Translations under genes and position numbers: made by a program
Notes under the pieces: generated by a model
What the model was told of the DNA's origin: nothing
Seen by the model: only the letters and a program-made list of their open reading frames with translations
The model's database searches: none
Assembly (NCBI GenBank): GCA_003223215.1
Contig: QHYH01000101.1
Span: 1 to 64,000, forward strand
Direction: 5' to 3'
Source of the DNA: Acidobacteriota bacterium
GTDB lineage: Bacteria; Acidobacteriota; Terriglobia; Acidiferrales; UBA7541
DNA length: 64,000 nt
Shown here: positions 1-18,428 of the stretch, piece after piece
How positions within the stretch are numbered: position 1 is the stretch's first letter
Layout of the letters: each line of letters begins with the position of its first letter

Positions 1-171
1 ATTTTGGAACAAGCAGGAACGGCGCGATCAGGCGTCCTGACGCCCACGCCGGGCAATCCAAGAAGTCTCATGTGGGAAGAGCGCACATGGACAGCGATGA
101 ACAAAATGAGGATATTTCGTTCAAGTTGGGCTTGGGAGATCTGACAAAGTGACAAAGTTCAAAGCGGGGCT

Positions 172-2621: not shown

Positions 2622-2893
2622 CGAATCGCGTCCAACAATCCTGCGAATCTTACCCCGAACACTGACCGCACGGATAGTCTCGATGGCTACCGCGCCGTCG
2701 CCGTCAAATCTGATGGCGGGGTGAATCTGTTTTCGCGGCGGCACAACTTGGCTAACCACTGATGAATCCGCCAGACGGATACACGCGGCTCGGCTTCAGA
2801 GATTCGTAACATAACAGGCTTCCGCAAACCGTGCGACATTGGTGCGGCAGCAAATAACCTTCGCTTTTCTGCTCTGGAACCGTCTCTTCTCGT

Positions 2894-3418
2894 TTAGTGC
2901 GGATTGCCGTTCAACTCCTTTTCCAGTCGGTCCACGCGATCTTCGAGGCCGTCGAGTTTTGCCTGCTCGGCCCGCAGTTGTTCCTCGGCCTCCATTTCTG
3001 CGGTTTGCGCTTGCTGTTCTTGCGCCGCTACGGATGGGAGTTCTGTTTTGATCGAAGAAACCTGCTGTTGGGCCTCTTTCTGCTGTGCCGGCGAAGCCTC
3101 ACTGTCGTCTGCGATTTTTTCATAATATTTCATGGTGCCCACCAACTGTCTCTGATGTTCCTGGATCGCCGCGAGTTTTGAACGCACGTCGTTGAGATGT
3201 TGCGAGACACGCGCTACGGTCGCTTCCTGAACCTGCAAGCGATAAAGGAGGACTTGCGCTTTGAGCGCGTATCCATTGGTAGTATGCAAATCCTCTCTCA
3301 GTTGTCGAACCTCCGCCACCAGAGCTTGCATACCTTGTGATTCGCTCGAAGTGGATTGACCCAAGCCAGACGCGGAGAAAAGTAAGAAACATAGAACAAA
3401 GACCCAAGGGCGACTCAT
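2894..3418 (-). CDS. Secreted coiled-coil protein of unknown function
   Basis: A 174-residue protein. It opens with a clear signal peptide (charged MSRPW, then a hydrophobic VFVLCFLLFSASG core, cleavage likely near GLGQ). The remainder is almost entirely Gln-, Glu- and Ala-rich heptad sequence, predicted to form long coiled coils, with the final helix DRVDRLEKEL at the end. It is probably periplasmic. No catalytic motif is visible and I do not recognise a family. It stands alone between the NTPase relic and the zinc-ribbon gene, all on the minus strand. Confidence 0.7.
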   Translation of the reverse strand: MSRPWVFVLCFLLFSASGLGQSTSSESQGMQALVAEVRQLREDLHTTNGYALKAQVLLYRLQVQEATVARVSQHLNDVRSKLAAIQEHQRQLVGTMKYYEKIADDSEASPAQQKEAQQQVSSIKTELPSVAAQEQQAQTAEMEAEEQLRAEQAKLDGLEDRVDRLEKELNGNPH

Positions 3419-3597
3419 GGTTCACCTCCCCAAAAATTCTATGTGTGAAACCGGCAGAAAGAATTATAGGTCCGTAGCGTGCGGGGGAAACCCCAGAATA
3501 CCCCAACGTCCCTTTGCACGGTACTGCGGGCAGCCCGTGGGCTGCGGTGTTAACGTGTTGCTGGTAGGGTGGCTCGTATCGCGGGATTCAGTATCGG

Positions 3598-3774
3598 TTA
3601 GCGTTGTTGGCTAGGCTCGGCCTGGGGCGGTTTGCCCGGCGAGTCATCGATGCGAAGTTCGGCTCCACACTGCCGACACTTCGGATTCTGCTTCCAGTCC
3701 GCGACGACGTAACGCTTGCCACAGCTCGGGCACCGATAGCGCCGCGTGAGTTGCCAGTCTCTCGCGGTATCCAT
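3598..3774 (-). CDS. Small zinc-ribbon protein, 58 residues
   Basis: A short frame starting ATG at 3774 (MDTARDWQL) and ending TAA at 3598. It contains two CxxC knuckles, CPSC near residues 15-18 and CRQC near 33-36, separated by 14 residues that include a basic and aromatic stretch. This spacing fits a rubredoxin-like or zinc-ribbon fold. The C-terminal tail is hydrophilic and Pro/Gln-rich. The gene begins about 50 bases beyond the 3' edge of the group II intron remnant and on the same strand, so its natural promoter may have been displaced by the intron. Function unknown; nucleic-acid or protein binding is the usual role of such ribbons. Confidence 0.6.
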   Translation of the reverse strand: MDTARDWQLTRRYRCPSCGKRYVVADWKQNPKCRQCGAELRIDDSPGKPPQAEPSQQR

Positions 3775-3833
3775 GAGCGGCTATCCTAGCATAAGCATTC
3801 AGAGGCTTGACAAGAGGCATTCGAGTCGCGGTA

Positions 3834-3897
3834 GGGACGACCATCGCTGATCGCCCCCCGCACAGAACCGTACGAGCGGCATTAACGCATACGGCTC
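3834..3897 (-). ncRNA. Group II intron domains V and VI
   Basis: Read on the minus strand, bases 3897-3865 begin GAGCCGTA and end TACGGTTC. These pair over eight bases (one G-U) with a two-base CG bulge on the 3' side, as in domain V. The apical part is degenerate compared with intact introns. After a G-rich linker, 3857-3849 and 3842-3834 pair over nine bases around a six-base loop (AGCGAT), matching domain VI, followed by TACC at the presumed 3' end. Confidence 0.65.
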
Positions 3898-3957
3898 CCA
3901 CCTTGGATGATTGACGAGGAGGACGGCTCCTCGCACACCGCGCAATCCTTGGAACAC

Positions 3958-4197
3958 TCACTTCCCCGCGCTGTGTCGGGCTGTGTCAGATTGAACGATG
4001 TTCTCCTTGGCCCGCGCCCTTTTCTCCCCAGACTCCGCCGAAGATCGCACTTCTTTGTTCGTCTGGTTCATCGATAGTATGGCGCGGTCCGACTCCTCCA
4101 GAGCGTGCGCGTCCGCCGTGTGGCTTTGCGCCTTCGCGGACCGGCCTCGTTCCCTTGCGGGCCGAGGCGCTCCAGAGGTCTCCCGGTTCTCGTGCAT
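3958..4197 (-). pseudogene. ltrA: N-terminal fragment of a group II intron reverse transcriptase/maturase
   Basis: A 79-codon frame that reads like the leader of group II intron-encoded proteins: MHENRETSG at the start, then EESDRAILSMNQTNKE and KRARAKENIVQSDTA. It ends at TAA before any reverse transcriptase motif (no YADD and no maturase domain follow). Downstream sequence jumps within about 60 bases to domain V, so the catalytic region was deleted. The protein is non-functional; the call rests on my recognition of this conserved leader. Confidence 0.65.
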
Positions 4198-4493
4198 GTT
4201 GTTTCTCAGCGTGCGCAGGTTCTACGACTACGCAGGACCGACTGCTCGCTCGCGATTATCGCGTAACAGCCGTGTTGCCTTCCTCCAATCAGGAGAGAGT
4301 CGGCGTCCTGGTTTTGCGTTTTTCGAAGTTCAATAGCCCGGCCCACCGATACCCCTGTCTACGCTTCGGGCGACACCTCGCGATGTCACCTGCAAGACTG
4401 AGGGCCAAGATGGAGTCGCTGTCTCCTTTCTTGTGGGACTCTTTCATTCCCTACGACACGCCGGTTTAACCGGGCGAACCCGGCGCTCCCTGA

Positions 4494-4523
4494 TTGACGC
4501 TAGGATTGGCTGCTTGCTACGAT
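4494..4523 (+). promoter_or_regulatory. Putative sigma-70 promoter for the PilZ gene
   Basis: TTGACG at 4494-4499 and TACGAT at 4518-4523 are separated by 18 bases, close to the sigma-70 consensus. The predicted start of transcription lies about 50 bases before the PilZ start codon. It lies just outside the 5' edge of the intron remnant. Confidence 0.45.
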
Positions 4524-4579
4524 ACGGGGAACCCCAGCGTATTTGCATCCCAAGCACCACGTCGATAAAGTGAGGCCGC

Positions 4580-4900
4580 ATGCTGGATGCCCGGAGACAT
4601 CCGCGCACCCCTGAGCAATTCCTGGTGCTAATCTTTGCCGTGCATGCTCCGCACGTCGGCGAGTTAGCCTCCGTCGAAAATGTTAGTTCTCATGGAGTGC
4701 GCGTGGCGACGGAGCGATCTTGGGAGGCTGACTCGCATGTAGGCCTCAAATCGCCCACTGGTAACACATGGGCCAGGGCGAGAGTAGTTTACTGTCTGCC
4801 GCACAGTCCGAAAGGATTTGCCGTTGGACTGGACTTCCTAACACAGACAAGTGAATGGGATACGCTGAGCGAGCTTCTAGCTACCAAACAACGGAAGTAA
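4580..4900 (+). CDS. PilZ-domain protein
   Basis: A 106-residue single-domain protein. It has an N-terminal RRHPRTP basic stretch, then SVENVSSHGVRV (the PilZ core strand region that normally reads D/N-x-S-x-x-G), and VVYC...KGFAVGLDF near the C-terminus. PilZ domains bind cyclic di-GMP. The RxxxR and (D/N)xSxxG elements are both recognisable here, though the second is NVSSHG. Short stand-alone PilZ proteins adapt c-di-GMP signals to motility or polysaccharide outputs by protein contact. No partner gene is adjacent. Confidence 0.7.
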   Translation: MLDARRHPRTPEQFLVLIFAVHAPHVGELASVENVSSHGVRVATERSWEADSHVGLKSPTGNTWARARVVYCLPHSPKGFAVGLDFLTQTSEWDTLSELLATKQRK

Positions 4901-5034
4901 CCCGCGCGGCTTCGTCGGACAAGCGTGCCTGCGAAGGTGTTGAGCCCATTTGCGCCCATTTGCGCCTCCCGGTGCTCTACAGTGTCCGCATTCCCGTATT
5001 CTGGCGGTTAAGCTTTTGCGCCCTCTGGGCCCAC

Positions 5035-5625
5035 CTACGCTGCGCCTGTCTCGGTGGAGTTTGCGAACCGTTCCGTGACAATCGGTAGCCAGCTTTCGGG
5101 GCCGTTCTGTAGCGCGTTGTAATCGGCATTGGTCATTTGCTGGCAAGGCGGATTCATGGCAAGAATCTTGACCTGCGGATAGTTCGCCTTGAGCCAATCA
5201 ACAATTTCTCTTCTGGTTTCTTCAGTCGCTGCGTGACCCACGATAAAGAGGTCGTAATGCTGAATCGAGCTTAAAAGAACCTTGGCGGCTTCGTTGCCCA
5301 ATACAGAGATAACGCCATATCCACGGCTCCTGAGCACTTCGGTTCTTCGAAGTCCTGCTGCTTCGTCGTAGGAAATCTGGAAAATCCGCTTGATCGTTCG
5401 CTTTGCCGAAGGCACATTCATTTGCGCCACAACCTGGTGTGTTTTTTCATCGGAGGCCAAGCATTCGTTCGTAGTGCGTTTCGATAGCTCTTCGGCGGCG
5501 AGCTTGGCAAACTCCAGCCCGGAGACGGCGGCTCTCTTGATGGTGGAACCATCAGGCATGACTTCAAAAATATCGTACGCCCGATACACTGCTACACCTC
5601 TCCTGGCCTCCTGCACTGGCGTCAA
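5035..5625 (-). CDS. Degenerate response-regulator receiver protein
   Basis: A 196-residue protein with two parts. Residues about 10-70 form a small alpha/beta module (YDIFEVMPDGS...SGLEFAKLAAEELSKR). Residues about 78-180 read like a receiver domain: IFQISYDEA, RTEVLRSRGYGV, YDLFIVGHAA, and VKILAMNPP. The position that normally carries the phosphoacceptor aspartate is a glycine (LFIVGHA), so classical phosphorylation is unlikely. Such pseudo-receivers act by protein interaction. The fusion of the small N-terminal module to a receiver is notable. It is monocistronic and convergent with the PilZ gene. Confidence 0.55.
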   Translation of the reverse strand: MTPVQEARRGVAVYRAYDIFEVMPDGSTIKRAAVSGLEFAKLAAEELSKRTTNECLASDEKTHQVVAQMNVPSAKRTIKRIFQISYDEAAGLRRTEVLRSRGYGVISVLGNEAAKVLLSSIQHYDLFIVGHAATEETRREIVDWLKANYPQVKILAMNPPCQQMTNADYNALQNGPESWLPIVTERFANSTETGAA

Positions 5626-6337
5626 CGATGGCTCTGCGCTGGTGCGGAGCGCCGGAAGTTCACTATTTGAAAGTCAAGCTTGCGCTGTGGCTACTTGGTC
5701 AAAAGCGTAGACCCACGAGGTGAGCGTCGTCAAGGACTCGCGCCAGAGCATGATCGCAATTTGTCACCATCCAAGGCCCTAATCTTCGGCGGAAAAGACA
5801 TAGCAAACGAAGATTCCCCTAAAAACCTCAGCGTTTACGCGGCTTCTGCCACTTCTCAACAGGAACGGACAGTCGTTCACTTACCGGCAGATTGGCGAAC
5901 GGCATCGTTGACGATGCGAGTAGAAGGAGCACGTCGGAGAAGCCTGATCGGGTACTGGCCCTTTAATAGGACTTTACCGGTAAGCGTTTATCAGGCAAGC
6001 GGATTATGCCGCCGCTCGTTTTGCACAGAAGCATTTTTCGATTCTCCTTGACACGCACGTCCGCGAGGAACAGGATCACTTCGAAGTTTCGCCCTTTGAG
6101 GTGAGACTCCCGCTCCGTAGTCTAACCGCAGTTTCTTTAACAGCTAAGCTCTGCGTCGAGCGCCAAGAGGGCAGTACGTCCTCGACTCGTTTTTCTCCGC
6201 CCGCGCCGGGCCTAACCTTCTGTCCCGACGTAGAGAACTGCACGCCCAGGACCGCAGCGGTTCCAGGCCATAACATTCGAGCCCGACTCGCTTCATGCGA
6301 AGATAGATTTCGAATTTCTCAAAAAGGAGAACACCCC
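5626..6337. other. Long intergenic stretch with a possible gene fragment
   Basis: No complete gene is convincing here. On the plus strand, the frame that later becomes the SnoaL-like ORF is open from about 5987 and reads protein-like (ADYAAARFAQKHFSILLDTH, then HFEVSPFEVRLPLRSL). It lacks a good start and degenerates before 6300, so it may be a relic of a gene 5' to the SnoaL gene. The rest shows nothing I can assign. Confidence 0.3.
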
Positions 6338-6787
6338 ATGTCAGAAGTAAACAAAACTATCGTCCGTCGTCTGTTTGAAGAAGTTTGGAACAAGGGCAAT
6401 CTGTCAGTGGCAGACGAGCTCTTTACCCCCAACTGCGAACATCATGACGCTTCGTCACCCGATTTTGGGCGTGGCCCGGAGAGTGAAAAGAAAAGAGCGA
6501 CGCTCTACCGCACTGCTTTCCCCGACCTTCGATTGACGATCGAGGACATCATTGCCGAAGGCGAAACTGTGATTGCCCGTTGGTCCTGTCGGGGTACGCA
6601 TAAAGGCGATCTCAGCGGCATTGCGCCAACGGGGAAGCAGGTCACCATCTCCGGGGTAAGCATCGCCCGCTTCAGTGGAAGCAAGATGGCAGAAGGCTGG
6701 ATCAACTGGGACGCTCTGGGCCTTATGCAGCAGCTCGGCGTCGTCCCTGAGCTTGCCAAAGCCAAAGCCGTTGCAGCGAAGCCTTAA
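6338..6787 (+). CDS. SnoaL-like / ester cyclase family protein
   Basis: A 149-residue NTF2-fold protein starting at ATG 6338. A strong AAAGGAGA ribosome site at 6324-6330 decides this start over longer in-frame options. Family hallmarks are NKTIVRRLFEEVWNKGN at the N-terminus, CEHHDAS in the first strand, GRGPES then YRTAFPDLRLTIEDI, and the paired TVIARWSCRGTH strand. SnoaL-like proteins include polyketide cyclases and many orphan enzymes; the substrate cannot be told here. It is followed by a rho-independent terminator, so it is a single-gene unit. Confidence 0.75.
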   Translation: MSEVNKTIVRRLFEEVWNKGNLSVADELFTPNCEHHDASSPDFGRGPESEKKRATLYRTAFPDLRLTIEDIIAEGETVIARWSCRGTHKGDLSGIAPTGKQVTISGVSIARFSGSKMAEGWINWDALGLMQQLGVVPELAKAKAVAAKP

Positions 6788-6817
6788 CCTTTCGGAGAGC
6801 TTTCCAATCTTTCTCAC

Positions 6818-6847
6818 GGGAGCGGGCTCCCTCCGCTCCCATTTTTT
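6818..6847 (+). terminator. Rho-independent terminator after the SnoaL-like gene
   Basis: GGGAGCGG at 6818-6825 pairs perfectly with CCGCTCCC at 6833-6840 around a seven-base loop, and is followed directly by ATTTTTT. This is a textbook GC stem plus U-tract, 30 bases beyond the SnoaL stop codon. Confidence 0.8.
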
Positions 6848-7030
6848 CTTCGGAATCGGCTCCCGGCTTCCACTCGACCGTCGGCGGTCACTTGCCTGTG
6901 TAGTCGGGTTACCGTACAAGTGAAATCGGTCACGGCACTTGTCCGGTTTCCGCGTTATGTCAGACCTTTACTTCCGCCGCCGGGTGCACGGGGCGCGCTT
7001 TTGCGCTAAGATTCATGCAGGAGTCGTGCT

Positions 7031-7258
7031 GTGGGAGAGTTCAGCGCCATTCATTGGTTTGTCCTCACCGTGATTCTGTTGCTGTTCGGCGGTAGAAAAA
7101 TCCGTGAAATGATGCGCCACCTCGGTAACGGCCCACGTGGCGGACCTCCAACGCATCCGCTTCCTGTGACGAGCGCTATAGAAACCTCGCGTGGTTCAGG
7201 AACCGGAGAAAAAGAACGCGCCTGGCAATTCGTCCTTCGGCCTTGGCGTCAACGCTAA
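7031..7258 (+). CDS. TatA/TatE-like protein, orphan
   Basis: 75 residues from a GTG start. The N-terminus FSAIHWFVLTVILLLFGGRK has the TatA layout: a short periplasmic lead, one membrane helix, an FG hinge and a basic amphipathic helix (REMMRHLGNG). The tail is Gly/Pro/Ser-rich and polar. TatA oligomers form the twin-arginine export pore with TatB and TatC, but no tatB or tatC lies in this window. The helix after the hinge is shorter and less acidic than in canonical TatA, so a specialised or decaying copy is possible. Confidence 0.55.
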   Translation: MGEFSAIHWFVLTVILLLFGGRKIREMMRHLGNGPRGGPPTHPLPVTSAIETSRGSGTGEKERAWQFVLRPWRQR

Positions 7259-7394
7259 CGCAGGTTAACCGGCGATTTCGAAATCCACTTCTCCGGTAAC
7301 CGCGTTTACCAGGGCCTTCGAGAAGAAGCAGCTTTTTGTTGATGGATAGGCATCATAGAATTTGCTTTTTGGGAAGTAGGAGGGATTCCTGATT

Positions 7395-8069
7395 GTGGCA
7401 CGCGCATCTGGCGTCATCTGCGGGACGTCGCTGGCGACCGTATGCCTCCTGTCCACACTTTGCGGTCAGACCTCCCGGTATCCAATCGAGTCTGCGAGCG
7501 CCCTCGTTGAACAGTTCGAGAGCACGACGCTATTCTGGAAGCAATTTGAGATGGCCAAGAAGATTGTCGTGCTTCATGACAAGAGCGTGCTTCAACCCCT
7601 CGAATCGTGGCTTGGCAACGAGGACATGCACCGCAGAGGCAACGCGGCGTTCATTTTCGCTAGCCTCGGAGATGATCGGGGGTTCCAGGTTATCAAGGCT
7701 CTTCTGGAGGACCGCTCGGCTAAACGTGCTGTGTTCGAGATCGACAGCACGGGCCGACCGAGTCTAAGGCGACAGCTTCGTGAGGACCGTTATTACGCCG
7801 CGCACCTTCTCGGAGATCTAAAGGACCCCCGAGCGGTTCCCATGCTGGTGCCCTTATTGAAAGACGAAGAAGTCAATTTGATTGTTCCTTGGTCATTGGG
7901 AGAAATTGGCGACAAATCAGCGATTCCTCCGTTGATTGAAGCGCTAGCTGACAGTCGTCTGGAAATGCGCGCCGCAGCTCTTCGCGCTCTTGAGAAGCTC
8001 GAAGCTAAGGAATGTCGCCCACCGCTGCGGCAAATCGAGGACGGCTGCACCATCGCCGTGAATCCATGA
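7395..8069 (+). CDS. Secreted HEAT-repeat protein
   Basis: 224 residues from a GTG start, with an N-terminal hydrophobic segment (GVICGTSLATVCLLSTLCGQ) that looks like a signal peptide, possibly a lipoprotein signal at LSTLC. The body has repeated helix pairs typical of HEAT/PBS-lyase-like repeats: RRGNAAFIFASLGDDRGF, YYAAHLLGDLKDPRAVPMLV, VPWSLGEIGDKSAIPPLIEA, RAAALRALEKLEAKE. These repeats build a curved binding scaffold. No enzymatic residues are seen. Its start lies within the AT-richer accessory region and it has no partner gene. Confidence 0.65.
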   Translation: MARASGVICGTSLATVCLLSTLCGQTSRYPIESASALVEQFESTTLFWKQFEMAKKIVVLHDKSVLQPLESWLGNEDMHRRGNAAFIFASLGDDRGFQVIKALLEDRSAKRAVFEIDSTGRPSLRRQLREDRYYAAHLLGDLKDPRAVPMLVPLLKDEEVNLIVPWSLGEIGDKSAIPPLIEALADSRLEMRAAALRALEKLEAKECRPPLRQIEDGCTIAVNP

Positions 8070-8233
8070 TGGTGAGGGGCCGGGGAAGCTCGCGGCGCAT
8101 ACGTGGTGCGTTAGCTCTAACCTTCGTCATCTTCTGCGTGTCGCCCTGTCGCACTAAGTCCCGCCGGTGATGAGCTGACGCTGAAGACAATGGTGAATCC
8201 ACTAGAGTTTGTGCCTACCTGCCCGGTTAGTAC

Positions 8234-8396
8234 AAAAATTACCGGCCAAACGCTTGGTGGACCGCAAGTGCAATTGAATAAGAGAGTTTGGCCGGTAATT
8301 TTTGACATTACTGGTCCAATCTGTGCACGCACCTTTAAACTATAGATTTGCAAACAGTTGATCTCGATGCGGGCATCACGATTGGCCAGTAATGTC
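8234..8396. repeat. Two adjacent palindromes built from four copies of one motif
   Basis: Bases 8234-8251 and 8286-8303 are a perfect 18-base inverted repeat (AAAAATTACCGGCCAAAC) with a 34-base loop. Directly beside it, 8304-8321 and 8380-8396 form a second 17-base inverted repeat with one bulged T and a 58-base loop. All four arms share ATTAC(C/T)GG(T)CCAA, in alternating orientation. This lies in the 590-base gap between the HEAT-repeat and lipoprotein genes; the rest of the gap has no convincing ORF. A small non-autonomous element or a multi-site recombinase or regulator target would look like this. Confidence 0.65.
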
Positions 8397-8659
8397 GCGT
8401 TACCGGAAAAGTCCCTCCCAGTACTCACATGGCCTTACAATCCGGCGCGGTCATGGCAGCTGGATAGCCTTTGCGAGTTAGAATCCCTGCCTTGAAAAAG
8501 GGCCCAAACGTGGAACCGATTCAACGTACGCACCGGGGACAAGACGCAACAACCGCTAATGCGGGCGCGCACCACCAAACCGTGAAATCTCTCTGGCAAC
8601 TGTGGAACGAACGGCGCTAGACTAGAAATCCCTCCTGGCACGCATGGTATTATCCGCGC

Positions 8660-9502
8660 ATGTTCGCTAAGGCGTGGGTGTGGCTGCTCTGCATCTTTCT
8701 TAGCGCTTGCACCAAAGCGCCAACTCTGATCGTAATTCACACCACTCAGTCATGGATGGGATACGGTGATCCCAAAACAACAACATGGGTTCGCGTGGAT
8801 AGAAAGAATGGGAAATATGTCGCCCAGAACCTGGACGCTGAGAATAGGGGAATTCCCGACGAGCAGGTGACGGCGTTCCTAGCTGCCCTGGATGCCCGCA
8901 CCGAGGGGTCCGTATCCTTCTCCAACCTCGGCATTACGCAGACTTGGCTGGATCAAAATGCCGAGCCCGCGTTCGGCGAGTACTTCAACGGCCGAACGAG
9001 ATGCATTGCCCCGTCACAACGAGAGTTGTTCATTAGCCGTTTTCGAAACGCCAGCGCAATCGGAAAAGCAGTCGGCGCGTACTTTGAATCGTCCTGGACG
9101 GATGATTTTCCGTGGACGCATGTGGAGATTTACGAGCGCGCTCGCGGTCGGGTGATCCTTTTGGAATCCTCACAGCTGCACGCTTTTATGATTCCTTGGA
9201 CAATCATTGAAAATGGACGCGGTCGCCTTTCCTTCAACGCAAACATCAGTCGAACGCTCAACGCGTTCTTGGCTGAGAACGCAGTGCTGAAGCAAAGAAT
9301 CGCCGGGACCGATTTTAGGCGGGGGCTGTCCGAATCTCTGTACAAACAGATGTGTCCGGCCTGGCGAAAGCTGGACCGAAACCCGGGCTCATGGAGAGTG
9401 TACGGAGAGTACTTAAGATGGTACCCACCCAATCCTGGCTGTGAGCCGCCGCCCTTCGATTCGTGCTATTTGCCCTGGAAAGCCTACAGTAAGGCCCCAT
9501 GA
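8660..9502 (+). CDS. Putative lipoprotein of unknown function
   Basis: 280 residues. The N-terminus MFAKAWVWLLCIFLSACTKAP is a lipoprotein signal with lipobox LSAC, so the mature protein is likely lipid-anchored at Cys17 in the periplasm or outer membrane. The body has no motif I recognise. The C-terminus carries several cysteines (MCPAW, GCEPPPF, SCYLPW) that may form disulfides in the periplasm. It stands between the palindromic repeat and a tiny overlapping ORF. Confidence 0.65.
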   Translation: MFAKAWVWLLCIFLSACTKAPTLIVIHTTQSWMGYGDPKTTTWVRVDRKNGKYVAQNLDAENRGIPDEQVTAFLAALDARTEGSVSFSNLGITQTWLDQNAEPAFGEYFNGRTRCIAPSQRELFISRFRNASAIGKAVGAYFESSWTDDFPWTHVEIYERARGRVILLESSQLHAFMIPWTIIENGRGRLSFNANISRTLNAFLAENAVLKQRIAGTDFRRGLSESLYKQMCPAWRKLDRNPGSWRVYGEYLRWYPPNPGCEPPPFDSCYLPWKAYSKAP

Positions 9503-9573
9503 CCCTAAAAAAAAAGACGGTTTCCCACTGTGCGACGGTCAAGCTGTTCATGGACTTGTGGGACAAGAAAAAG
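9499..9573 (+). CDS. Tiny ORF overlapping the lipoprotein stop
   Basis: An ATG that shares ATGA with the stop codon of the lipoprotein gene opens a 24-codon frame, MTLKKKTVSHC through FMDLWDKKK. The overlap would allow translational coupling and the peptide is basic at both ends. There is no homology evidence and the frame is short enough to be chance. Confidence 0.2.
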
Positions 9574-9628
9574 TAAGCTGGTTTCTCCCGATTCTCCTAC
9601 CTATTAATCTCAACTTCCGAGACACATC

Positions 9629-9890
9629 ATGTCGATCAGCAAGTGCATTGTCCGTTTGAAGGATTGCCACAATACCGAACACAGCGTTGAGGTTTACGCA
9701 GAATCACTATACGAAGCCGTCCTTCGCGGGTTTAGTCGCTTGCAAGTTGTTGGGTGGGAATCCAACGGGAATGAAACAAAACAGCGAGTTGAGGTAGAAA
9801 TTCACCAGGAGCCCTACCCGCGAACGTATCTCACCGCTACTTTGGCAGCAAATCGAGCAGAGCAGGCGGCGGGAACAAGCTTGTCCACAA
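9629..9890 (+). pseudogene. Small acidobacterial-type protein truncated at its 3' end
   Basis: The frame begins MSISKCIVRLKDCHNTEHSV and continues with YAESLYEAVLRGFSRLQ and VEVEIHQEPYPRTYLTATLA, which reads as a natural protein of about 85 residues. From about 9890 the same frame runs antisense through the hsdM C-terminus and becomes an Arg/Pro-rich shadow, so the original 3' end has been replaced. I recall small proteins of this type, often near DNA-processing genes, but cannot assign a function. The truncation marks a recombination junction. Confidence 0.45.
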
Positions 9891-11313
9891 TCATCTCTTT
9901 AGGTCGGCAGCGATCTGGGAAAATTGGTCAAGGGCCGCCTGCAAGTCCTCGGCGATTTCGGCGGCGATCACGTCTGGATCAGGCAGGTTTGCAGAGTCCT
10001 CTAGGCTCTCGTCTTTCAGCCAGAAGATGTCCAGGTTCACCTTATCGCGCTTGAGAAGCTCATCGTAGGCGAAGCACTTGAATCGTTCGGTTTCCTTCCG
10101 CACATGGCGATTTTCGGCGTGATAACAGGCAACGAAATCATCCAGGTCCGAGCGTTTGAGGGGATTCGTTTTCAGCGTGAAGTGCTGGTTGGTCCGAAAG
10201 TCGTAAATCCAGAGCTTCTTTGTCCACGGAGTTTCGCTGGCTGGCTTCCGGTCAAAGAAGAGAACGTTCGCTTTCACACCCTGCGCGTAGAAGATTCCGG
10301 TCGGCAATCTCAGAAGGGTGTGCACATCGCATTCATGTAGGAGCTTCCGGGCACCACAATTGCGGCCCGGCCATGAATTTTTAGTAGCGATTTCACGTGC
10401 TGCAAGAAGTTAAGTTAAGTTGTTTGTTGCTCGTCGTGGCCCAGAAGTCGTCGCGATAATACGTAAGAGCTTCTTTTGTCTCCTCTCCTTCTTCGCTGAC
10501 GACGGTGATACTGGATTTCTTGCCGAAGGGCGGATTCGTCAGAACGACTTCGTAATAAGTCGAAGGGGCTTGGGCGAGTGCGTCTATCCCGTCGCGTATG
10601 GGTGAGTCTTCGCCACCGATACCATGAAGGAACAGATTCATCACGCACAATCGCGCTACGCCTGCGACAAGGGCGGTACCGGACAGCGCTTTATGCCTCA
10701 GGGTCTGTTTCTGTGTCTTATCCAGTTCGTAGTGATGACTCTCGTAGTCGTAAGCGGCCAGCAAGAAGCCGCCAGTGCCACAGGCGGGGTCGTTCACTGC
10801 CTCGCCGGGCGCAGGGCGCACTACGTCCACGATTGCCTTGATGAGAGCACGCGGCGTGAAGTACTGTCCCGCCCCTCCCTTCACGTCTGCTGCGTTTTTC
10901 TCTAGCAATCCCTCGTAGGCGTCGCCCTTTACATCCACTTCCAGAGTCATCCACTGCTCTTTGGCAATCAGATCGGTGATAAGGCGTTTCAACTTGGCGG
11001 GGTCCTGAATCTTGTTTTGAGCTTTGCGGAAGATCACGCCGAGCATCCCTGGTTGCTTACCAAGCTCCGTAAGGATGTGACGGTTGTGGCTTTCCAAATC
11101 GTCTCCGTCGAGACGCTCCAGGCTAGACCAATCCAAGCTACTCGGGATGAGTCGCGGACGGCTGTACGGAGGCTTCATCTGCTCGTCCGCCATTTTCAAG
11201 AACAGAAGAAATGTCAACTGCTCGACGTAATCCCCATACGAGAGACCGTCATCGCGGAGAACAGTGCAGTAGTTCCAGAGCTTTTGAACGATAGCCGATG
11301 ATCCGGTTGGCAT
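9891..11313 (-). pseudogene. hsdM: Type I restriction-modification methyltransferase subunit, broken
   Basis: The first 300 codons (11313 to about 10410) are an HsdM N-terminal domain and SAM-binding core: KLWNYCTVLRDDGLSYGDYVEQLTFLLFLKM is typical, with motif I DPACGTGGF and catalytic NPPFGKK. The frame is then lost at three tandem copies of AAGTT (10407-10421). Removing one copy restores QLNFLQHVKSLLKIHGRAA. A second lesion near 10340-10350 deletes the expected loop after AAIVVP and shifts frame again. The C-terminus (10325 to 9891) resumes with HTLLRLPTGIFYAQGVKANVLFF. HsdM would modify adenine in a complex with HsdS, but neither hsdS nor hsdR is adjacent, so the system is dead. Confidence 0.8.
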
Positions 11314-11336
11314 TCCTTTTTCCTATCTTCCGTGGT

Positions 11337-11925
11337 TCACAGCACAAGGCCCGTGCGACCGCCCTGACAATTCGGGCACTTGCGCTCGAAGATGTCGCTG
11401 CCATTTGCGCCATAGACGTGCCCGCAGCCCGAACATGCGACCTGGTACACGTATTGATTGTGGTCTGTGCCCGGCGTCCCGGTATTGCGAATCGTGATTT
11501 GCCCGTGTGGGTTGGCAAAGCCCGAGTCCGTGGTTGACCGAAATGTTCCATTTCCTAATCCCAGGTCCTCAAAATCAAAAGCAGCGGCATCCAGTTCGCA
11601 CGGCAACACGCCAGCCTTGTCACAAATCGCTTGGATGTAATCCAAAACCGTTTCGTAATAATTGAGTTGGTTGAGGCGCTTTGGATGAATCTTGTTTGCG
11701 AGATTGGCATTCACCCAATCCGTCACTCGGCTATCAAGGGGGATCTCATACCGTGTCAGGCCCAGCCATTGCCAAAGATTGCGGCTCTGCTTCGGTCCAA
11801 GGCCAGCAAAACTGTCATCCGCCCAATGAGCTGCCTTGCGTTCCAGGAGTCGATCCTCTTTCTGTGGTTCCCTTGACCGCTGCTGCCTGAGATTTTCTAC
11901 ACCCTCAACAGTTATGGAAGGCTAT
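11337..11925 (-). pseudogene. HhH-like protein with a C-terminal zinc ribbon, 5' end missing
   Basis: A GTG at 11726 would give a 129-residue protein with a zinc ribbon (CSGCGHVY ... CPNCQGG) at its end, but the frame is open and protein-like up to about 11925. The upstream part reads FAGLGPKQSRNLWQWLGL then IPLDSRV. The GxGxK-(S/A) hairpin followed by an Asp about 20 residues later resembles the helix-hairpin-helix and catalytic Asp of HhH-GPD DNA glycosylases. This link is inference. No start codon is evident at the 5' end, where the frame runs into a plus-strand gene, so the N-terminus appears lost. It lies just upstream of hsdM on the same strand. Confidence 0.4.
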
Positions 11926-12281
11926 CGCTTTGCTACGGTAGCCCCCTCACCTTCGACACAACTCCTGCACCTAAAACCAATACTTGTGTACCCACCGCGT
12001 TTAAGCACCTAGGGCTGGACGCAGACATGCTTGATTGTTCCGAAGAGGGAACATCACAAAAGCAAGCGGACGAACTACTATCAAAGTTCGAGAAGCTATC
12101 GTGGCAGGGATTTGTTGGGGATTTTATCAAGCAACATCCGACCGGGTCTTACTACATCTCGTGCTACCTGGATTACCGGGAAGTCGATGGCCACGCCTTC
12201 GCTCTAATTGACGGTGATGCCTTCAACATCAGTTATGAAAATTTCCGGAAAGAAGTCCGAGCAGTTTGGCGGATCAGATGA
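11883..12281 (+). CDS. Possible papain-like/cysteine-peptidase-fold protein
   Basis: An ATG at 12027 gives only 84 residues, but the frame is open from 11883 and reads naturally before it (PEIFYTLNSYGRLSLCYGSP, then NTCVPTAFKHLGLD). A cysteine followed by a helix (NTCVPTAFKHL) and a later DGHAFALIDGDAFN offer the Cys and His spacing of C39- or NlpC-like folds. That is inference from pattern only. No ATG, GTG or TTG suits the extended form; CTG at 11883 is the first usable codon. The 3' end overlaps the next gene as ATGA. Confidence 0.35.
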   Translation: MPEIFYTLNSYGRLSLCYGSPLTFDTTPAPKTNTCVPTAFKHLGLDADMLDCSEEGTSQKQADELLSKFEKLSWQGFVGDFIKQHPTGSYYISCYLDYREVDGHAFALIDGDAFNISYENFRKEVRAVWRIR

Positions 12282-12691
12282 GTGAACTGTCAACGGGCAC
12301 CAAGGGTGCGATATCCGAGTTACGGGTCGCGTCACACCTCATGGGTTTAGGATTTCAAGTTTTCAAAAATCTCAGCATGCACGGCAGTTGCGACCTGGTT
12401 GCAATTTCTCGCCGTGGCCGAGTCATCAAGGTTCAGGTCAAGTCCACACTCAGCATCAATAGTTTTCGCAATCTGCGTCTGGGGCAGAACCAATTATTAG
12501 CGTGTCTTGTGAATGGGGAGATACACTACCGAGCAATCAACCGTCGTGTCCAATCCCTGATCCCAGGGTGTGCTCTCGCTAGACGACCGGCACGACCGTC
12601 AGCAGCGAAGCGGCCAGCGTTGCGCCATGCCAGCGTCAAAAGCGTCAAAGCGTCAAAAAGGCTGCTTGACATTTGGCCCCAGTTCTGGTAA
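12278..12691 (+). CDS. PD-(D/E)XK nuclease-like protein, C-terminus probably altered
   Basis: Start ATG 12278 overlaps the previous stop (ATGA), implying coupling; a TTG 12 bases earlier is less likely. Residues 1-90 match a small PD-(D/E)XK fold of the group I intron endonuclease type: GAISELRVASHLMGLGFQVFK, SCDLVAI, then RVIKVQVKST, giving E, D and QxK catalytic positions. After about residue 95 the sequence becomes Arg/Ala-rich and low in complexity (RRPARPSAAKRPALRH), suggesting a frameshift or junction that replaced the natural end. Role in DNA cleavage or repair is inferred. Confidence 0.5.
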   Translation: MSELSTGTKGAISELRVASHLMGLGFQVFKNLSMHGSCDLVAISRRGRVIKVQVKSTLSINSFRNLRLGQNQLLACLVNGEIHYRAINRRVQSLIPGCALARRPARPSAAKRPALRHASVKSVKASKRLLDIWPQFW

Positions 12692-12694
12692 TAT
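12666..12694 (+). promoter_or_regulatory. Near-consensus sigma-70 promoter with a long leader
   Basis: TTGACA at 12666-12671 and TAATAT at 12689-12694 with exactly 17 bases between them. This is the best promoter seen in the window. The next gene starts 230 bases later (the HTH protein at 12926). The leader contains a GC-rich hairpin (CACCGGG...CCCCGGTG at 12751-12771) and no good ORF. Confidence 0.65.
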
Positions 12695-12925
12695 CAATTT
12701 TGTCAATCGCTCCTGTAGTTTGGGAGCCATTTTCATTATGGGCAAATACCACCGGGTCACAGCCCCGGTGCCCGAAACCCCGTGGACCCGTTTTAGCCAG
12801 GGATAAAATAGCATCGACCCTGGGTCAGGTTTACCGTGGCGCACGCTACCCGGTAGGGGAACCTCCACAAGACCATTAAGCAAGGTCGCTGGCAAGCGCA
12901 TTAGTGCGTTTGCAGGACTTTTGCT

Positions 12926-13162
12926 ATGGCTCGTCTTAAACCGAAGTATCCGACTCCGCCTGCACCAGTTGCAGTTGCGCCTGTTTCGCCAACACCCTGC
13001 AAGGACTTCATGAATCTGAAAGAGGCCGCTAGATATTTCGGCGTCTCCATCTGGTCGGTTCGCGGTCTAATTGCGAAGGGATTCATCAAGGCGAAACGAA
13101 TCGGAAAGTATGATGTCGTGCGCCGGATGGACCTTGCTGAGTATTGGGAAAAGGCGGCGTAG
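12926..13162 (+). CDS. Excisionase-like helix-turn-helix protein
   Basis: 78 residues with a Pro/Ala-rich lead and a winged-helix core FMNLKEAARYFGVSIWSVRGLI then KRIGKYDVVRRMDLAEYWEK. This is the MerR-like DNA-binding fold of phage excisionases and small element-borne regulators: helix-turn-helix, then a wing and a final Asp-Leu helix. It ends one base before the tRNA-Glu 3' CCA and stands next to a tyrosine integrase, so a recombination directionality factor or element regulator is likely. It is probably transcribed from the strong promoter at 12666. Confidence 0.6.
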   Translation: MARLKPKYPTPPAPVAVAPVSPTPCKDFMNLKEAARYFGVSIWSVRGLIAKGFIKAKRIGKYDVVRRMDLAEYWEKAA

Positions 13163-13163
13163 C

Positions 13164-13238
13164 TGGCAGCGGTACGGGGAATCGAACCCCGGTTTCGAGG
13201 TTGAGAACCTCGCGTCCTAACCCCTAGACGATACCGCC
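13164..13238 (-). tRNA. tRNA-Glu (anticodon CTC)
   Basis: On the minus strand the acceptor GGCGGTA pairs with TACCGCT (first pair G-U), followed by discriminator G and an encoded CCA. The D-arm has the Glu-type TCGTCTAG...GGAC. The anticodon stem CGAGG/CCTCG encloses the loop TTCTCAA with CTC in the anticodon position. The T-arm is CGGGG-TTCGATT-CCCCG. All arms fold, so the gene looks functional. It is the integration target of the adjacent integrase. Confidence 0.92.
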
Positions 13239-13254
13239 GCACTCTTTGATTCTA

Positions 13255-14439
13255 TCATTTACCAGCCAGAGTTTCGAAAGCGTTCTGCTGCTGACTCAGG
13301 TCCTTGATGTCGTAGCGATTGAACACCGAATCTGTTCTGTGTCCGCTGATGCTTTTGGCTGTGGCGCGGTCGATGCCGTTGGCGGTCATCCGTGAAACCG
13401 CTGTGCGCCGGAAGTCATGTGGCCTGAGTCCGCGATATGTTTGCTTGATCGGGTCGTACACGCCGACCTTCAATTTGTGGCATGCCTGACGCCATTGGCT
13501 GCGGAAGTCGGTGGTATCGAAGATCAGAGCACCGTTCACTCGCGTACCCTCGACAATGTGTTTCGACCAATTAAAAGGCTTTCCTTTGGAATCGACCAAG
13601 GGAATGGGCGCGTCTTGTTTCGTTGTCCCAGGTTCAGAACGTGGAGTCAGGATTGTACGTTCTTCGTTCACGTCGTCCCAGGTTAATTCCGCAGTCTGAC
13701 CGGAGCGTTTTCCAGTTCCAGCAAGAAAGAGAATATATGGATGCAGTTTTTTAGGGTTTGCATCTTTCTTCAGGTTTTTCTCGATTTCATTGAGAATGTT
13801 TTCGAGAAGTTCTTTCGATGCTACTGTCCGGCGAATGTTGTCCACACCAGCCGCCATCGGAAAATACGGAACGTCGTGCCTATCGATTAGTTCCTCTTTG
13901 GCAGCATGATTGAACATGGCTCGAGAACTGTTAAGCGGCGATTGGTGGTCGCCTTCGTAGCATTCTCTACCCACTGCCGGGAGTCAGCTTCAATCTGTTT
14001 CAGTTCTTTCGGAGAGGGCTTTCGGCCTAGCTTCAGGGTTCGAACAGCTAGTTCTTGCTGGTAGGATTTCTCTTTGAATTCGAGCACCACGGAAGTGTTC
14101 TCACGAAATTCTCTAAACTTCTTAAGCACTGTCGGAGTAATTGGACCGGACGTATCTGTTCTTGAAGAACATGTTCAGGTCTTCCAGAATGCTCCCCTGG
14201 ATGTGCTTGCCGCTTTCCAGGTAGGCGTCTCGAATCTTCTCGTATCTCAGGTGGGTTTCTTCCTTGACCCCGGCCTTAACCTCAACCTTCCACTGCTCCA
14301 GCTTTTCCGCAGCATCGTGCTCGTCCTTAGTTCCTGTGGATTTGCGCTGTTTGACCCCGTCGATCACCAGGAACATGTAATACGTTCCGGCCTGGTTGAC
14401 CTTGTTGCTGATGTAGCCTTCTCCGCTGATTGCCGCCAT
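13255..14439 (-). pseudogene. Tyrosine recombinase (phage-type integrase), twice frameshifted
   Basis: Three overlapping minus-strand frames make one integrase of about 390 residues. The N-terminal piece (14439 to about 14150) has GYISNKVNQAGTYYMFLVID and an arm-binding region. The middle (about 14150 to 13930) is the SAM-like core-binding domain. The C-terminal piece (about 13930 to 13255) is catalytic: GKRSGQTAELTWDDV, HDFRRTAVSRM, SISGHRTDSVFNRYDI, giving the HxxR, H and Tyr nucleophile. Single-base indels near 14148 and 13928 separate the frames. It stops 16 bases from the tRNA-Glu 5' end. Two sequencing errors remain possible. Confidence 0.8.
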
Positions 14440-14521
14440 ACAAGCCCTCCGATTAGTTTGGGTTGTACCTGCGGGTGCAACCTGGGTACAAGTATGTAAA
14501 GGGATTCATGGAAAAGATTAA

Positions 14522-14563
14522 GCTTGAGAGGGCTACGTCCTAACCCTTAGACGATATCGCCGG
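14522..14563 (-). repeat. Degenerate 5' half of tRNA-Glu, likely attachment-site remnant
   Basis: Bases 14536-14562 match 13213-13239 of the tRNA-Glu gene at 25 of 27 positions in the same orientation. The anticodon-loop hexamer TTGAGA (plus-strand reading) recurs at the same 12-base distance. The 3' half of the tRNA is absent and the anticodon stem no longer pairs, so it is not a functional tRNA. It closes the integrase segment on its right. Between here and 14821 there is only a GC-rich hairpin (14584-14603) without a T-tract. Confidence 0.75.
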
Positions 14564-14821
14564 AGACCTGCACGGAAAGAGATCCGCCGGAAATCCCCGG
14601 CGGGACATCTGATTCTCGCATGGACGATCAAGACGATCAAGCCAGGCAGGATTCAAGAGATTCAAGGATTCAAGGGTTCGCAGCGAACCACTTTCCCGCG
14701 TTTAGCGACGCGTGGCCGGCGTCGGAATTCTGATTTGTATTCACGCGATTCTCCAACCAAGAAGGTATTGCTTCTCGTGCTTTGAAGGTGATCTGCCTGG
14801 CGACGAGAGCACGGCCAGCGG

Positions 14822-16639
14822 TCAGCGATAGGCAGCGGCTTGGATGCTGTACAGCTCGGAGTAATGACCTTTCCTGGCCATCAGCTCATCGTGTGTGCCG
14901 ACCTCCACGAGCCGGGAGCCATCCATCACGAGGATGAAGTCGGCCATGCGCACCGTCGAGAAGCGGTGGGAGACGAGGATGGTGATGCGGCCGCTCGGGT
15001 TCTCGCCGGGGCCGCGTGCTGCGGCAGCATAGCGCTCAAACAAGGCGTGTTCGGTCTCCGCGTCCAGCGCCGCTGTCGGCTCATCGAGGATGAGCAGCAG
15101 CGGCTCATCGCGCATGAAGCCTCGCGCCAGCGCCAGTTTCTGCCATTGCCCGAACGACAGTTCGACTCCGCCCGGCCACGTTGGACCCAGCTGCGTTTCC
15201 AGGCCTGCCGTCAAACGGGTAACGACATCTGCCGCGCCGGCGCGTTCTACCGCCGCAGCCACCGCGTGCTCGTCCTCAAGTCGAGGAACGTCGCCCAGAC
15301 CGACGGTATGCCGTGCGCGGAATTCGAACCGGAAAAAGTCCTGGAACGCGCCGGCGAGGCGCTCGCGCCACTCGCTGGCCTGCACCCGTGCCAAAGGCGT
15401 TTCGTCGAGGAAAATGGAACCGGATGTTGGCTCGTACATTTTCGCCAGGAGCTTGACCAGCGTGGTCTTGCCGGCACCATTCTCGCCGACAATCGCCGCC
15501 ACCGCGCCGGCAGGCAGCTCTACCGACACATCGTCCAGCACCACACGCGACGTGCCCGGGTAGGCGAACGACGCATGATCGACTCGAATCCCTTTCCGCA
15601 ACACTCTCGGAACCGGGTGGTCCCCCGACGCTGCAACGGCGGCAGCGTAATCCTCAAGCCACGCCAGCCGCCGCGATCCGTCCATCCAGAACCCTCGCAG
15701 GAATCCGAGCTCGCCCACGGTTGCGCCGATGTACGCCGAAAGCCGCGCGCCCGCGGCCAGCACCAGGAGCACTTGGCTCGCCGATGCGTGAAGCCCCGAC
15801 GAGACGAACACGACGGCGCCGACGTACCCGGATCCGAAAATCGCCCAGGCCACCGCGTGCCAGAATGCGGATGCCCACCGGGCGGGAGCCACGAGCTCGT
15901 ACCAACGCTCCCACGCCGCTCTCCTCTGTGTCGCCAGGCGGTCTCCGATGCCTATGACGCGCACTTCCTTCCCTGGAGACGCCGTCGTAGCCATGTTGAA
16001 CAGATGACGCGCCAAGCGGATTGCTTGTGCTCCACGCTCCTGGGCGGACCGCTCGACCTCGGGTCGCCATGTCGAAGTCCATACGGTTGGCACGGCAAAC
16101 ACGCCGAGCAGGAGGAGCGCCGGGTGAATGCATCCGAGCAGCGCCAACGTCACGCTTAGCCGTAAAATCCACCCGAGCATGGAGAACACTGCCATGTACA
16201 TGTGGTCGAGGACGAAGACCTGGTTGCGCAGCATGGACAGGCGGTCGAGGTACTCGGGGCGCTCCTGGTGAGCGATCGTCGCGATCGAAGCCTGCACTTT
16301 GGCCACATGGGACTCGAGGGCGATCGTCACCTTGTCGCGAAAGCGCCGCTGCATGCGCGTGCTGACCGTGCGGAGAAACCAGGTTGCCGCTGCCGATACG
16401 GCAAGCCCAATCGCCGTTCCGAGCACGAGCCCGTCACGGTGCTCCAATACGCCCTTGCCAAGCAGCATCAACCATAGCGCCAGAAGCGCATCGGGCAGGG
16501 CCGCGAGCTGCGACAGCACAAGTGACGCCAACATCAGTCGCGGTTCGTGGCGGTACCCCAGCTGGCACAGACGCCACATGGATGACAGCGCAGGGGGCAG
16601 TGGTTCGATCGGCTGCCCGCGTTTAGGAGAGGACGTCAT
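14822..16639 (-). CDS. ABC exporter half-transporter (membrane plus ATPase), second of pair
   Basis: 605 residues starting [10 protein letters not shown] at 16639; longer starts run inside the upstream gene. An N-terminal transmembrane domain of about six helices (ASLVLSQLAALPDALLALWL and others) precedes an ATPase domain: Walker A GENGAGKTT at about 386, signature SFGQWQK near 493, Walker B LLLILDEPTAALD, and H-loop VSHR near 555. The signature begins LSFGQ instead of LSGGQ, a deviation often seen in one half of heterodimeric exporters. The start overlaps the previous gene by 17 bases, so the two are co-translated and probably form one heterodimer. The substrate is unknown; peptide or lipid export is likely. 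Confidence 0.85.
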   Translation of the reverse strand: MTSSPKRGQPIEPLPPALSSMWRLCQLGYRHEPRLMLASLVLSQLAALPDALLALWLMLLGKGVLEHRDGLVLGTAIGLAVSAAATWFLRTVSTRMQRRFRDKVTIALESHVAKVQASIATIAHQERPEYLDRLSMLRNQVFVLDHMYMAVFSMLGWILRLSVTLALLGCIHPALLLLGVFAVPTVWTSTWRPEVERSAQERGAQAIRLARHLFNMATTASPGKEVRVIGIGDRLATQRRAAWERWYELVAPARWASAFWHAVAWAIFGSGYVGAVVFVSSGLHASASQVLLVLAAGARLSAYIGATVGELGFLRGFWMDGSRRLAWLEDYAAAVAASGDHPVPRVLRKGIRVDHASFAYPGTSRVVLDDVSVELPAGAVAAIVGENGAGKTTLVKLLAKMYEPTSGSIFLDETPLARVQASEWRERLAGAFQDFFRFEFRARHTVGLGDVPRLEDEHAVAAAVERAGAADVVTRLTAGLETQLGPTWPGGVELSFGQWQKLALARGFMRDEPLLLILDEPTAALDAETEHALFERYAAAARGPGENPSGRITILVSHRFSTVRMADFILVMDGSRLVEVGTHDELMARKGHYSELYSIQAAAYR

Positions 16640-18428
16640 AGGTCGTGCCTTCCTCGTCCGCCGGAACGTTAAAGCGCTCCGCTTGCAGATCGAACATCGT
16701 TCGATAGCGCCCTCTGAGCGCCATGAGTTCGTCGTGTGTGCCGAGCTCAATTACCCGACCGTGTTCAAGCACGCAGATGCGATCCGCATGACGTACGGTG
16801 GAAAATCGATGCGAGATGAGGATAGTGGTCGAGTGCCGCGTCGCTGCCAGCAGGCGGTCGAAAATCTCCGCCTCTCCACGCACGTCGAGCTGCGCTGTGG
16901 GCTCGTCGAGCAGCACCACACTGGCCCCCAAGCTCACCGCCGACAATGCCCGCGCCAGCGCTACCCGCTGCCATTGTCCGCCGGACAGGTCCGTACCGCC
17001 GTCATATCCACGCGCAAGCACGGTGTCGAGCGAAGCCAGGTTCGCAGCGCCTGCCGATTCGAGGGCGTCGCGCACGACCTGGTCTGGAGCGCCTCGCGGC
17101 GCGACATTGTCGCGGAGGGGCAGTTCCAGCCTGATGAAATCCTGAAATACAGCCGCAATGCGGGCACGCCACGATGCGAGATCGACCTCCCGAAGATCCA
17201 CACCGTCGATCTCAATCCCGCCGGACTGCGGGTCGTAGAGCCGACAGAGTAACTTTGCGATCGTTGTCTTGCCGGCGCCGTTCTGTCCCACGATAGCGAG
17301 TGATGAGCCGGCGGGAATGGTGAGATCGAAATGTTCCAAAACGGGCGCGGCACCTGCTGTCGGATAAGCAAAGGTCACGTCGCGCAGGCGAATCTCGTGC
17401 GGGCGTTTCGCGTCCAAGGGGCGACTGCCGGAGCGCAGCGCGCCGGCAGGGCGCATGGCCGGCTCAAGCCGCAGCACGGCCGCGACCGGCGCAGCCGCTC
17501 CGTCGAGCGCCCAGCTGAATCCGCCGAAAGCGATCATCGAAACGCCGATGGCACTCTGCATGTAGGCCACGGCTTCGCCGAGGCTGATTTTCGCGTGAAT
17601 CGCGCTGCTCCCGAGTGCCCAGAACACCGCGATGTTTGTGCCCACCACCAGCAGCAGGCTCCCGACCAGCGGCCGCTCGCGCAATCGCGTGGCCGCGTAC
17701 TGTAACTCGTGCAAACGCGTTCGTCTGGCAATGAAGCGCTCGATGGTCCAGCCGACTAGCCCGAACAGCCGGAGTTCCTTGCTTGCGGGCGGATCCACGG
17801 CAAGCCGATAGGCGTAGTCCGCATCGCGCTGGGCGCTGCGCACCTCTTCGGTGTTGCGATCGCGCCAGACCGCGCTCTCGCGCAAGAGCCAATGCGTGGC
17901 TGCCCATGCTCCCGCAAGTAAGATGGGCGCCCACCACGCATATCGGAGGAGAATCAGCGCACAGGCGATGCCGCCGACCATCTCCGCCATTCCGCCGGCG
18001 ATGAAGTCCATGGAGATAGTCAGAGGGGGGCCCGTCATTCCGAGATCGAAGTCGCGCGCCACGGTCAGGTCGCTCGCCAGTTTTGCATCTTCGAGGTGCG
18101 CCATGCCGGGCGGGCGCACGCAGGCCTCCGTGAGCCGGTCGTAGAGCCATGCTGCCGTGCGGTCGCCTAGATTGGCGCTGACGGCTTGATGAATCGGGCT
18201 GAGCACTTGAAGAAGGATGAAAATTGCGCCGGCAAGCGCGAGCGGACCCGCAAGGGGATTACCGCGTTCGACCGCCCCGACAAGAACGCCCATGGCAACG
18301 GCGAACGCCGCCGGAAGTCCGCCCCTCAGCAACAGGGCCAACCACCATGCCAGGGCAAGGCCAGGAGCGGCCCTGGGCAAGACGGCGAAAAACTTCCATT
18401 CCTTGCGTTCGAACACCCGCTCGAGCAT
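16623..18428 (-). CDS. ABC exporter half-transporter, first of pair
   Basis: 601 residues: a transmembrane domain in roughly the first 320 residues ([31 protein letters not shown]) and an ATPase with Walker [10 protein letters not shown] near 377, canonical signature LSGGQWQR near 481, Walker [13 protein letters not shown] and ISHR. Q-loop and D-loop are intact, so this half should hold a consensus catalytic site while its partner is slightly degenerate. The two genes form an operon transcribed away from the divergent radical SAM gene (180 bases between starts), which may share regulation. Confidence 0.85.

Follow-up and report, generated by a model that had tools for sequence, protein, structure and literature searches.

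The closest described systems are temperate phages whose integration disrupts a host tRNA gene and whose genomes carry a tRNA of their own. In tRNA-dependent lysogeny, described in actinobacteriophages (Guerrero-Bustamante and Hatfull 2024, PMC10865867), a tyrosine integrase uses a host tRNA gene as attB, the attachment core is 8-17 bp long, the tRNA is not rebuilt, and the phage encodes a tRNA of the disrupted isotype. The same authors raise the question of how frequent such systems are elsewhere, and report for phage Gaia a tRNA downstream of Int with an inverted attP, as well as related integrases that rebuild the tRNA. Prophages of Sinorhizobium meliloti in tRNA-Leu(UAG) disrupt the central part of that tRNA and carry a foreign-type tRNA with the same anticodon, a case that the authors call a substitution of the host tRNA (PMC11476347); the excerpted part of a report on another S. 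meliloti prophage set (PMC12429752) has no such substitution. Islander-type tRNA islands (PMC4383910) also combine a tyrosine integrase with a tRNA gene target, which, in the definition excerpted from that source, is restored by island sequence, with the displaced fragment at the other end. Among the papers listed for 'tRNA-dependent lysogeny', none has Acidobacteria in its title or in the opening of its abstract, and no title listed in related searches concerns such a case.

The locus described here lies in the window (the whole stretch of DNA that was analysed, 64,000 nucleotides), which is part of contig C98 of genome G000. It shares with tRNA-dependent lysogeny a tyrosine integrase (Pfam Phage_integrase), the use of a host tRNA gene as attB (the junctions lie in tRNA-Glu), attachment cores that measure 12, 11 and 9 bp in the three loci for which both gene halves were found (one of them with a junction, on contig C40, that scores below the Rfam cut-off), and an element-borne tRNA of the disrupted isotype, here the same isoacceptor in 9/9 cases when the split gene is named by its closest native type. 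It differs from the phage systems, as set out in the excerpted sections of PMC10865867, in its integrase group, its tRNA-Glu target, its integrase-tRNA-excisionase cassette, the replacement of both glutamate isoacceptors in one genome, and its decayed end states; the elements are islands without recognised phage structural genes rather than temperate phages. With the S. meliloti prophages it has in common the disruption of the central tRNA part and a foreign-type tRNA with the same anticodon; that account, in its excerpted part, deals with two prophage cases and one isotype, and neither an integrase-tRNA cassette nor a decayed series appears there. Unlike the target of Islander-type islands, the native gene stays split at both ends. 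The mechanism appears to be that of tRNA-dependent lysogeny, and the host probably depends on the imported tRNA, as the lack of intact native Glu tRNAs in G000 suggests. The logic of that system would thereby extend to a different group of bacteria and to islands in which phage structural genes were not recognised.

Parts of the locus and the split native gene

A complete tRNA-Glu(CTC) gene with an encoded CCA, here called the spare because it is borne by the element, lies at 13164-13238 on the minus strand. Before it, on the same strand, is a tyrosine integrase gene (13255-14439) that runs toward the tRNA, from 14439 to 13255, and matches Pfam Phage_integrase (7.7e-12, on 13255-13974). The gene is broken, spread over three reading frames with at least two frame changes, and contains three TGA, one TAG and one TAA codons when read through in one frame. 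A -10-like box, TAGAAT (13249-13254, minus strand), stands right after the integrase stop codon and 10 nt from the tRNA, and a -35-like TCGAAA lies upstream of the spare at 13272-13277 on the same strand. On the other side, an excisionase-like HTH gene (12926-13162, plus strand) is convergent with the tRNA, which its end adjoins; it matches HTH_17 (2.7e-7) and the NCBIfam model 'excise' (2e-5, under that model's cut-off). An earlier note on this DNA had recognised the complete tRNA, the orientation of the integrase and its frameshifted state, all of which hold, and had placed the tRNA inside or between elements; it is inside one, between the broken integrase and the excisionase-like gene.

The second tRNA part of the window (14523-14561, minus strand) is the 5′ half of a different gene, the native tRNA-Glu(CTC), from nucleotide 1 to nucleotide 39, ending at the anticodon loop. 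It is identical at 39/39 positions to the gene of genome G032, and also agrees with the intact tRNA-Glu of G024. The earlier note had rightly seen a 5′ half here, though a shorter one, and its 25/27 match is confirmed (13213-13239 against 14536-14562). With up to 3 mismatches allowed, this 27-bp repeat has only these two copies in the whole 8.8-Mb genome, and it is absent from shuffles of the window. The two copies are not, as had been supposed, attL and attR of one tRNA, and the intact tRNA is not the target: the repeat reflects the likeness between two different tRNA-Glu genes (57/75 identical), and the native target is split between 14523-14561 and contig C40.

A search of 61 genomes with the intact gene of G024 as the native query gave three places in G000: the window remnant (nucleotides 1-39), a half on C40 (nucleotides 28-75) and a weak match on the spare. 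The C40 half (C40:2726-2773) is the 3′ half, 47/48 identical to native, and it overlaps the 5′ half by a 12-bp core, AGCCCTCTCAAG, which corresponds to tRNA nucleotides 28-39, is part of the anticodon stem-loop, and, on comparison of the junctions, occurs both at 14523-14534 (minus strand) and at the C40 junction. At the C40 junction ARAGORN predicts a tRNA-Glu (2704-2773), which reaches 25.9 bits against the Rfam cut-off of 29 and has no cloverleaf fold. The native tRNA-Glu(CTC) is split in its anticodon loop by a mobile element, and the site-specific integration at tRNA-Glu that the earlier note had proposed stands, with the cut at the anticodon loop.

The earlier note had suggested a comparison with relatives whose tRNA-Glu site is empty. 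A search with the flank right of the repeat gave same-genus genomes with the neighbouring ABC genes. The empty site of G032 holds an intact tRNA-Glu(CTC) at 9318-9392 with the flanks of C98 and C40 on either side, the C98 right flank mapping at 9414-9474 and from 9885 on, and the C40 flank at 9206-9325 and from 9091 downwards. Both flanks are matched in the same way in G012 and G008, and also in G024, which has an intact tRNA-Glu at the site, unlike the intact tRNA of the window, and about 3 kb between that tRNA and the C40-side block; G030 and G018 match on the C98 side only. Parts of the chromosome side of the window junction (14562-14645), which is the upstream region of the native gene, match the bases immediately upstream of the intact tRNA in G032, G030, G024 and G012.

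Each side of the G000 site also has an extra piece. On the C98 side this contains two ABC transporter genes (14822-18428). G000 and G024 have them between the native upstream region and the conserved block that follows, G032, G030 and G018 do not have them at that position, and they therefore look like a separate insertion or loss. On the C40 side, 2.3 kb separate the 3′ half from the native flank at about 5056, near which CGCTGCCAAAT, the end of the tRNA, occurs a second time and is followed by native downstream sequence. Between the two CGCTGCCAAAT copies (C40:2774-5056, L088) is a 643-aa ORF without a Pfam match, and the piece looks like a further element inserted at the tRNA 3′ end. An ORF of G024 (L020:7757-8818), located shortly after the 3′ end of that genome's intact tRNA-Glu(CTC), matches Phage_integrase with an E-value of 0.006, below cut-off; the 3′ end of this tRNA may be used by a second kind of element.

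The remainder of the window element would occupy 1-12925, running off the contig start, and its other end C40:1-2725, both extents being set by the junctions. From the common core and the flanks, C98 and C40 are taken to carry the two ends of one element, the middle of which is unassembled. The stretch 1-12925 includes an AAA ATPase-like ORF (172-2424), small ORFs, and a type I methyltransferase gene (9891-11313) that is broken and split over two ORFs; the ORFs searched yielded no recognisable intact restriction system.

Recurrence in the genus and the second glutamate tRNA gene

The native tRNA-Glu(CTC) is split in 6/36 same-genus genomes (G000, G011, G017, G023, G025 and G028) and occurs at full length, as a native-type gene with at least 93% identity, in 13/36; the remaining 17/36 have more diverged copies or none and are unclassed. 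The integrase and tRNA half are thus not common to all relatives, as they would be under the vertical inheritance that the earlier note had named as its alternative. All six split genomes have a complete tRNA-Glu(CTC) close to the split half. An open integrase sits between the two in G011, G023 and G028, and in G011 both native halves are on a single contig, 9.3 kb apart and with 9 bp in common. The layout is decayed in G017 and G025, which have integrase remnants beside the CTC site; the G025 locus also has a gene for an ADOP-family permease, placed between its integrase remnant and its spare (L092:10049-12499). An ADOP permease that scores above cut-off in a same-genus genome points to Acidobacteriota as the host group. 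G016 has the same layout with tRNA-Glu(TTC) and an integrase shortened to 239 aa, and is the weakest case because its spare is near the native TTC type (96% to G354).

These loci vary in several respects. In the window the neighbour of the integrase is the 5′ half; in G011, G023, G028, G016 and on contig C271 of G000 it is the 3′ half. Searches with native Glu tRNAs did not find the 5′ half in G023, G028, G025 and G016, and the remnant's own anticodon is mutated in G023 and in G017 (TTC). Spares of the GGCCCGG type carry CTC in G011, G023 and G028 and TTC in G017 and on C271 of G000, so that the anticodon follows the split gene. A scan of another 23 integrase loci, part of them from the same genus, with ARAGORN and with a T-arm pattern of a kind that would miss 5′ halves showed no spare-type layout; T-arm matches in two of them (L226 and L229) look like the 3′ ends of other tRNAs, and these loci are without a complete tRNA.

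The tRNA-Glu(TTC) gene of G000 is also split and replaced, by a second element. On C271 the 3′ half of the native gene (C271:7545-7591) precedes a related integrase (61% identity to the G028 integrase), which is followed by a complete tRNA-Glu(TTC); the native 5′ half is at C98:84734-84775 and has an 11-bp core in common with the C271 half. The tRNA inventory of G000, in which 150/328 first-look candidates were scored, typed 50/51 places above the Rfam cut-off, and the 51st (C275:1262-1349, 29.9 bits) is no tRNA by ARAGORN. It holds only two intact Glu tRNAs, the CTC gene of the window and the TTC gene of C271, both element-borne, and direct CTC and TTC searches, which scored all candidates, found no intact native copy in G000. 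Because both native Glu tRNA genes are split and the spares imported, the cell seems to decode glutamate codons with tRNAs from mobile DNA.

In G017 the CTC and TTC searches gave only spares and decayed remnants. Its spare tRNA-Glu(TTC) lies on a 3.7-kb contig where no integrase was found beside it, and its native half is decayed, yet this spare and the one of G000 have the same sequence. This identity suggests selection, and might also stem from recent transfer.

Function of the spare tRNAs and competing explanations

Several features suggest that the spares work. Fitted to the cloverleaf, nine spares and one native gene (nine distinct rows) are paired in 189/189 cells, and 14/21 pairs have changed on both sides. 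The paired share, the both-side count and the covariation score were reached by 0/500 shuffles, and the number of pair types by 7/500. A -10-like box lies 8-11 nt upstream of 9/9 spares, beside or over the integrase stop codon where the integrase is kept; it beats all 27 control windows in 8/9 and is matched once in the ninth, in a test that used a -10 matrix and was picked after the sequences had been seen. Among tRNAs that follow related integrases of ordinary type, 2/11 beat all controls; among native tRNAs, which are presumed active, 0/4 did. The box therefore marks spares, and its absence does not mark dead genes. Judged from these sequence features, the spares are probably expressed, may rescue the host, and may have become a gene on which it depends.

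With high confidence, the arrangement is explained by an integrative element that split the native tRNA-Glu(CTC) and supplies a complete substitute, the TTC gene having been replaced likewise by a second element. The split, the core, the complete tRNA and the recurrence described above carry this explanation, to which expression of the spare and rescue of the host would be added. The element would enter the native gene by recombination in the anticodon loop via the 12-bp core, and because the core is only 12 bp, neither junction rebuilds the tRNA. The element's own tRNA-Glu(CTC), just behind the integrase and with its own promoter-like box, would stand in for the lost gene. Excision would restore the native gene as long as the integrase works; the integrase of the window has decayed, so that the native gene is no longer restorable by excision with it. 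After such decay the spare would be fixed as the host's gene and the native halves would rot. Stages of this course may be represented by the open cassettes of G011, G023 and G028, by the broken integrase of the window, and by the decayed native remnants and conserved spare of G017.

A wider proposal, for which confidence is moderate, is that these are non-viral islands with a swap-in cassette of integrase, tRNA and excisionase that destroy a host tRNA gene, supply a substitute with the matching anticodon and become indispensable, and that both Glu tRNA genes have been permanently taken over in G000 and apparently in G017. If true, imported tRNA genes have taken over core decoding from inherited ones in the former and apparently in the latter. 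The arrangement found here offers a concrete way in which unrelated genes could take the place of essential tRNA genes, and would account for islands that are difficult to lose. Searches that expect a restored tRNA with its displaced fragment would overlook or misinterpret these elements, as the earlier note did.

The alternative that survives best, although it is unlikely, is that the element carries its tRNA for another purpose, such as codon supply or resistance to anticodon nucleases, and that the splitting of the host gene is incidental. Such roles have been proposed for phage tRNAs (PMC10865867), and the anticodon stem of the spares is unlike that of the native gene, in the window completely different; a differing stem could also keep the integrase from attacking its own spare. 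This alternative has to contend with the identity of spare and split isoacceptor in all nine cases, where other isotypes were possible, and, because no intact native Glu tRNA was found in G000, the spare must at least do the decoding there.

Very improbable is an ordinary tRNA island, as the earlier note had it: a single tRNA-Glu whose 5′ half is present at both ends of a 1.3-kb integrase element, with two copies that have since diverged. Related integrases do leave exact 5′-half duplicates, of 40-41 bp in three relatives (at Asn, Val and Met) with ordinary rebuilding of the tRNA, but at this locus the native 3′ half lies on C40 with native flank beyond it, an element gene lies beyond the intact tRNA, and that tRNA is unlike the native gene in both halves, with paired changes. 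A classic 5′-half duplication is ruled out by the C40 half and its flanks. A second tRNA-Glu copy inherited vertically is likewise out, given the recurring integrase, tRNA and excisionase cassette and the one, different tRNA at the empty site of G032. An assembly error or contamination joining unrelated pieces is barely credible, since, although the assembly has 279 contigs and the two halves are on different ones, the junctions are well inside their contigs (C98:14523 of 90876, C40:2726 of 33408), the fit of halves and cores is exact, and other assemblies have the same layout, one of them within a single contig.

Make-up and origin of the cassette

The excisionase-like protein of the window is 78% identical over 79 aa to its counterpart at the same place in G023, and the integrases of the two loci group together (100/100) in a tree of 31 integrases in which the window is represented by a 239-aa fragment with a long branch and 14/31 rows are assigned to no group. 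The cassette is modular, because this integrase and excisionase-like pair is akin in the window and G023 and the tRNAs between the two genes are of different types. The six spare-type rows of the tree need at least two label changes.

The integrase family was found in 58/399 class genomes (E <= 1e-25), in 25/89 family-level genomes (1e-30) and in 9/396 phylum genomes (1e-50), G000 included. Among viral contigs, 65 stretches matched a pattern and none was confirmed as a relative; phage and plasmid collections gave distant integrases only, with 24-29% identity among the matches listed, and one scan of bacterial genome contigs gave a single short 44% match, in a Streptococcus MAG. Compared with PHROGs, 13 ORFs of the 9.3-kb G011 element (the integrase, the excisionase-like gene and 11 others of at least 80 aa) matched integrase and transposase families only. 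Twenty ORFs of the window element (19/20 of those of at least 80 aa, and the excisionase-like gene) matched methyltransferase, excisionase and unknown families and no structural family, in a comparison of an incomplete element that small or unknown phage genes could escape.

Complete Thr, Gln, Asn or Met tRNAs also follow related integrases at distances of 7-68 bp. Because such integrases leave 5′-half duplicates or precede complete tRNAs, the spare layout probably arose from ordinary tRNA-rebuilding elements. In G230 a tRNA-Glu(CTC) behind an integrase (L130:1921-1995) has a 54-bp copy of its 3′ part at 8583-8636, 6.6 kb downstream, which is perhaps a second, 3′-type attachment. In G077 a tRNA-Val(CAC) has an exact 41-bp copy of its 5′ half 2.1 kb away with an integrase between them (L131:4680-6888), apparently a very small element.
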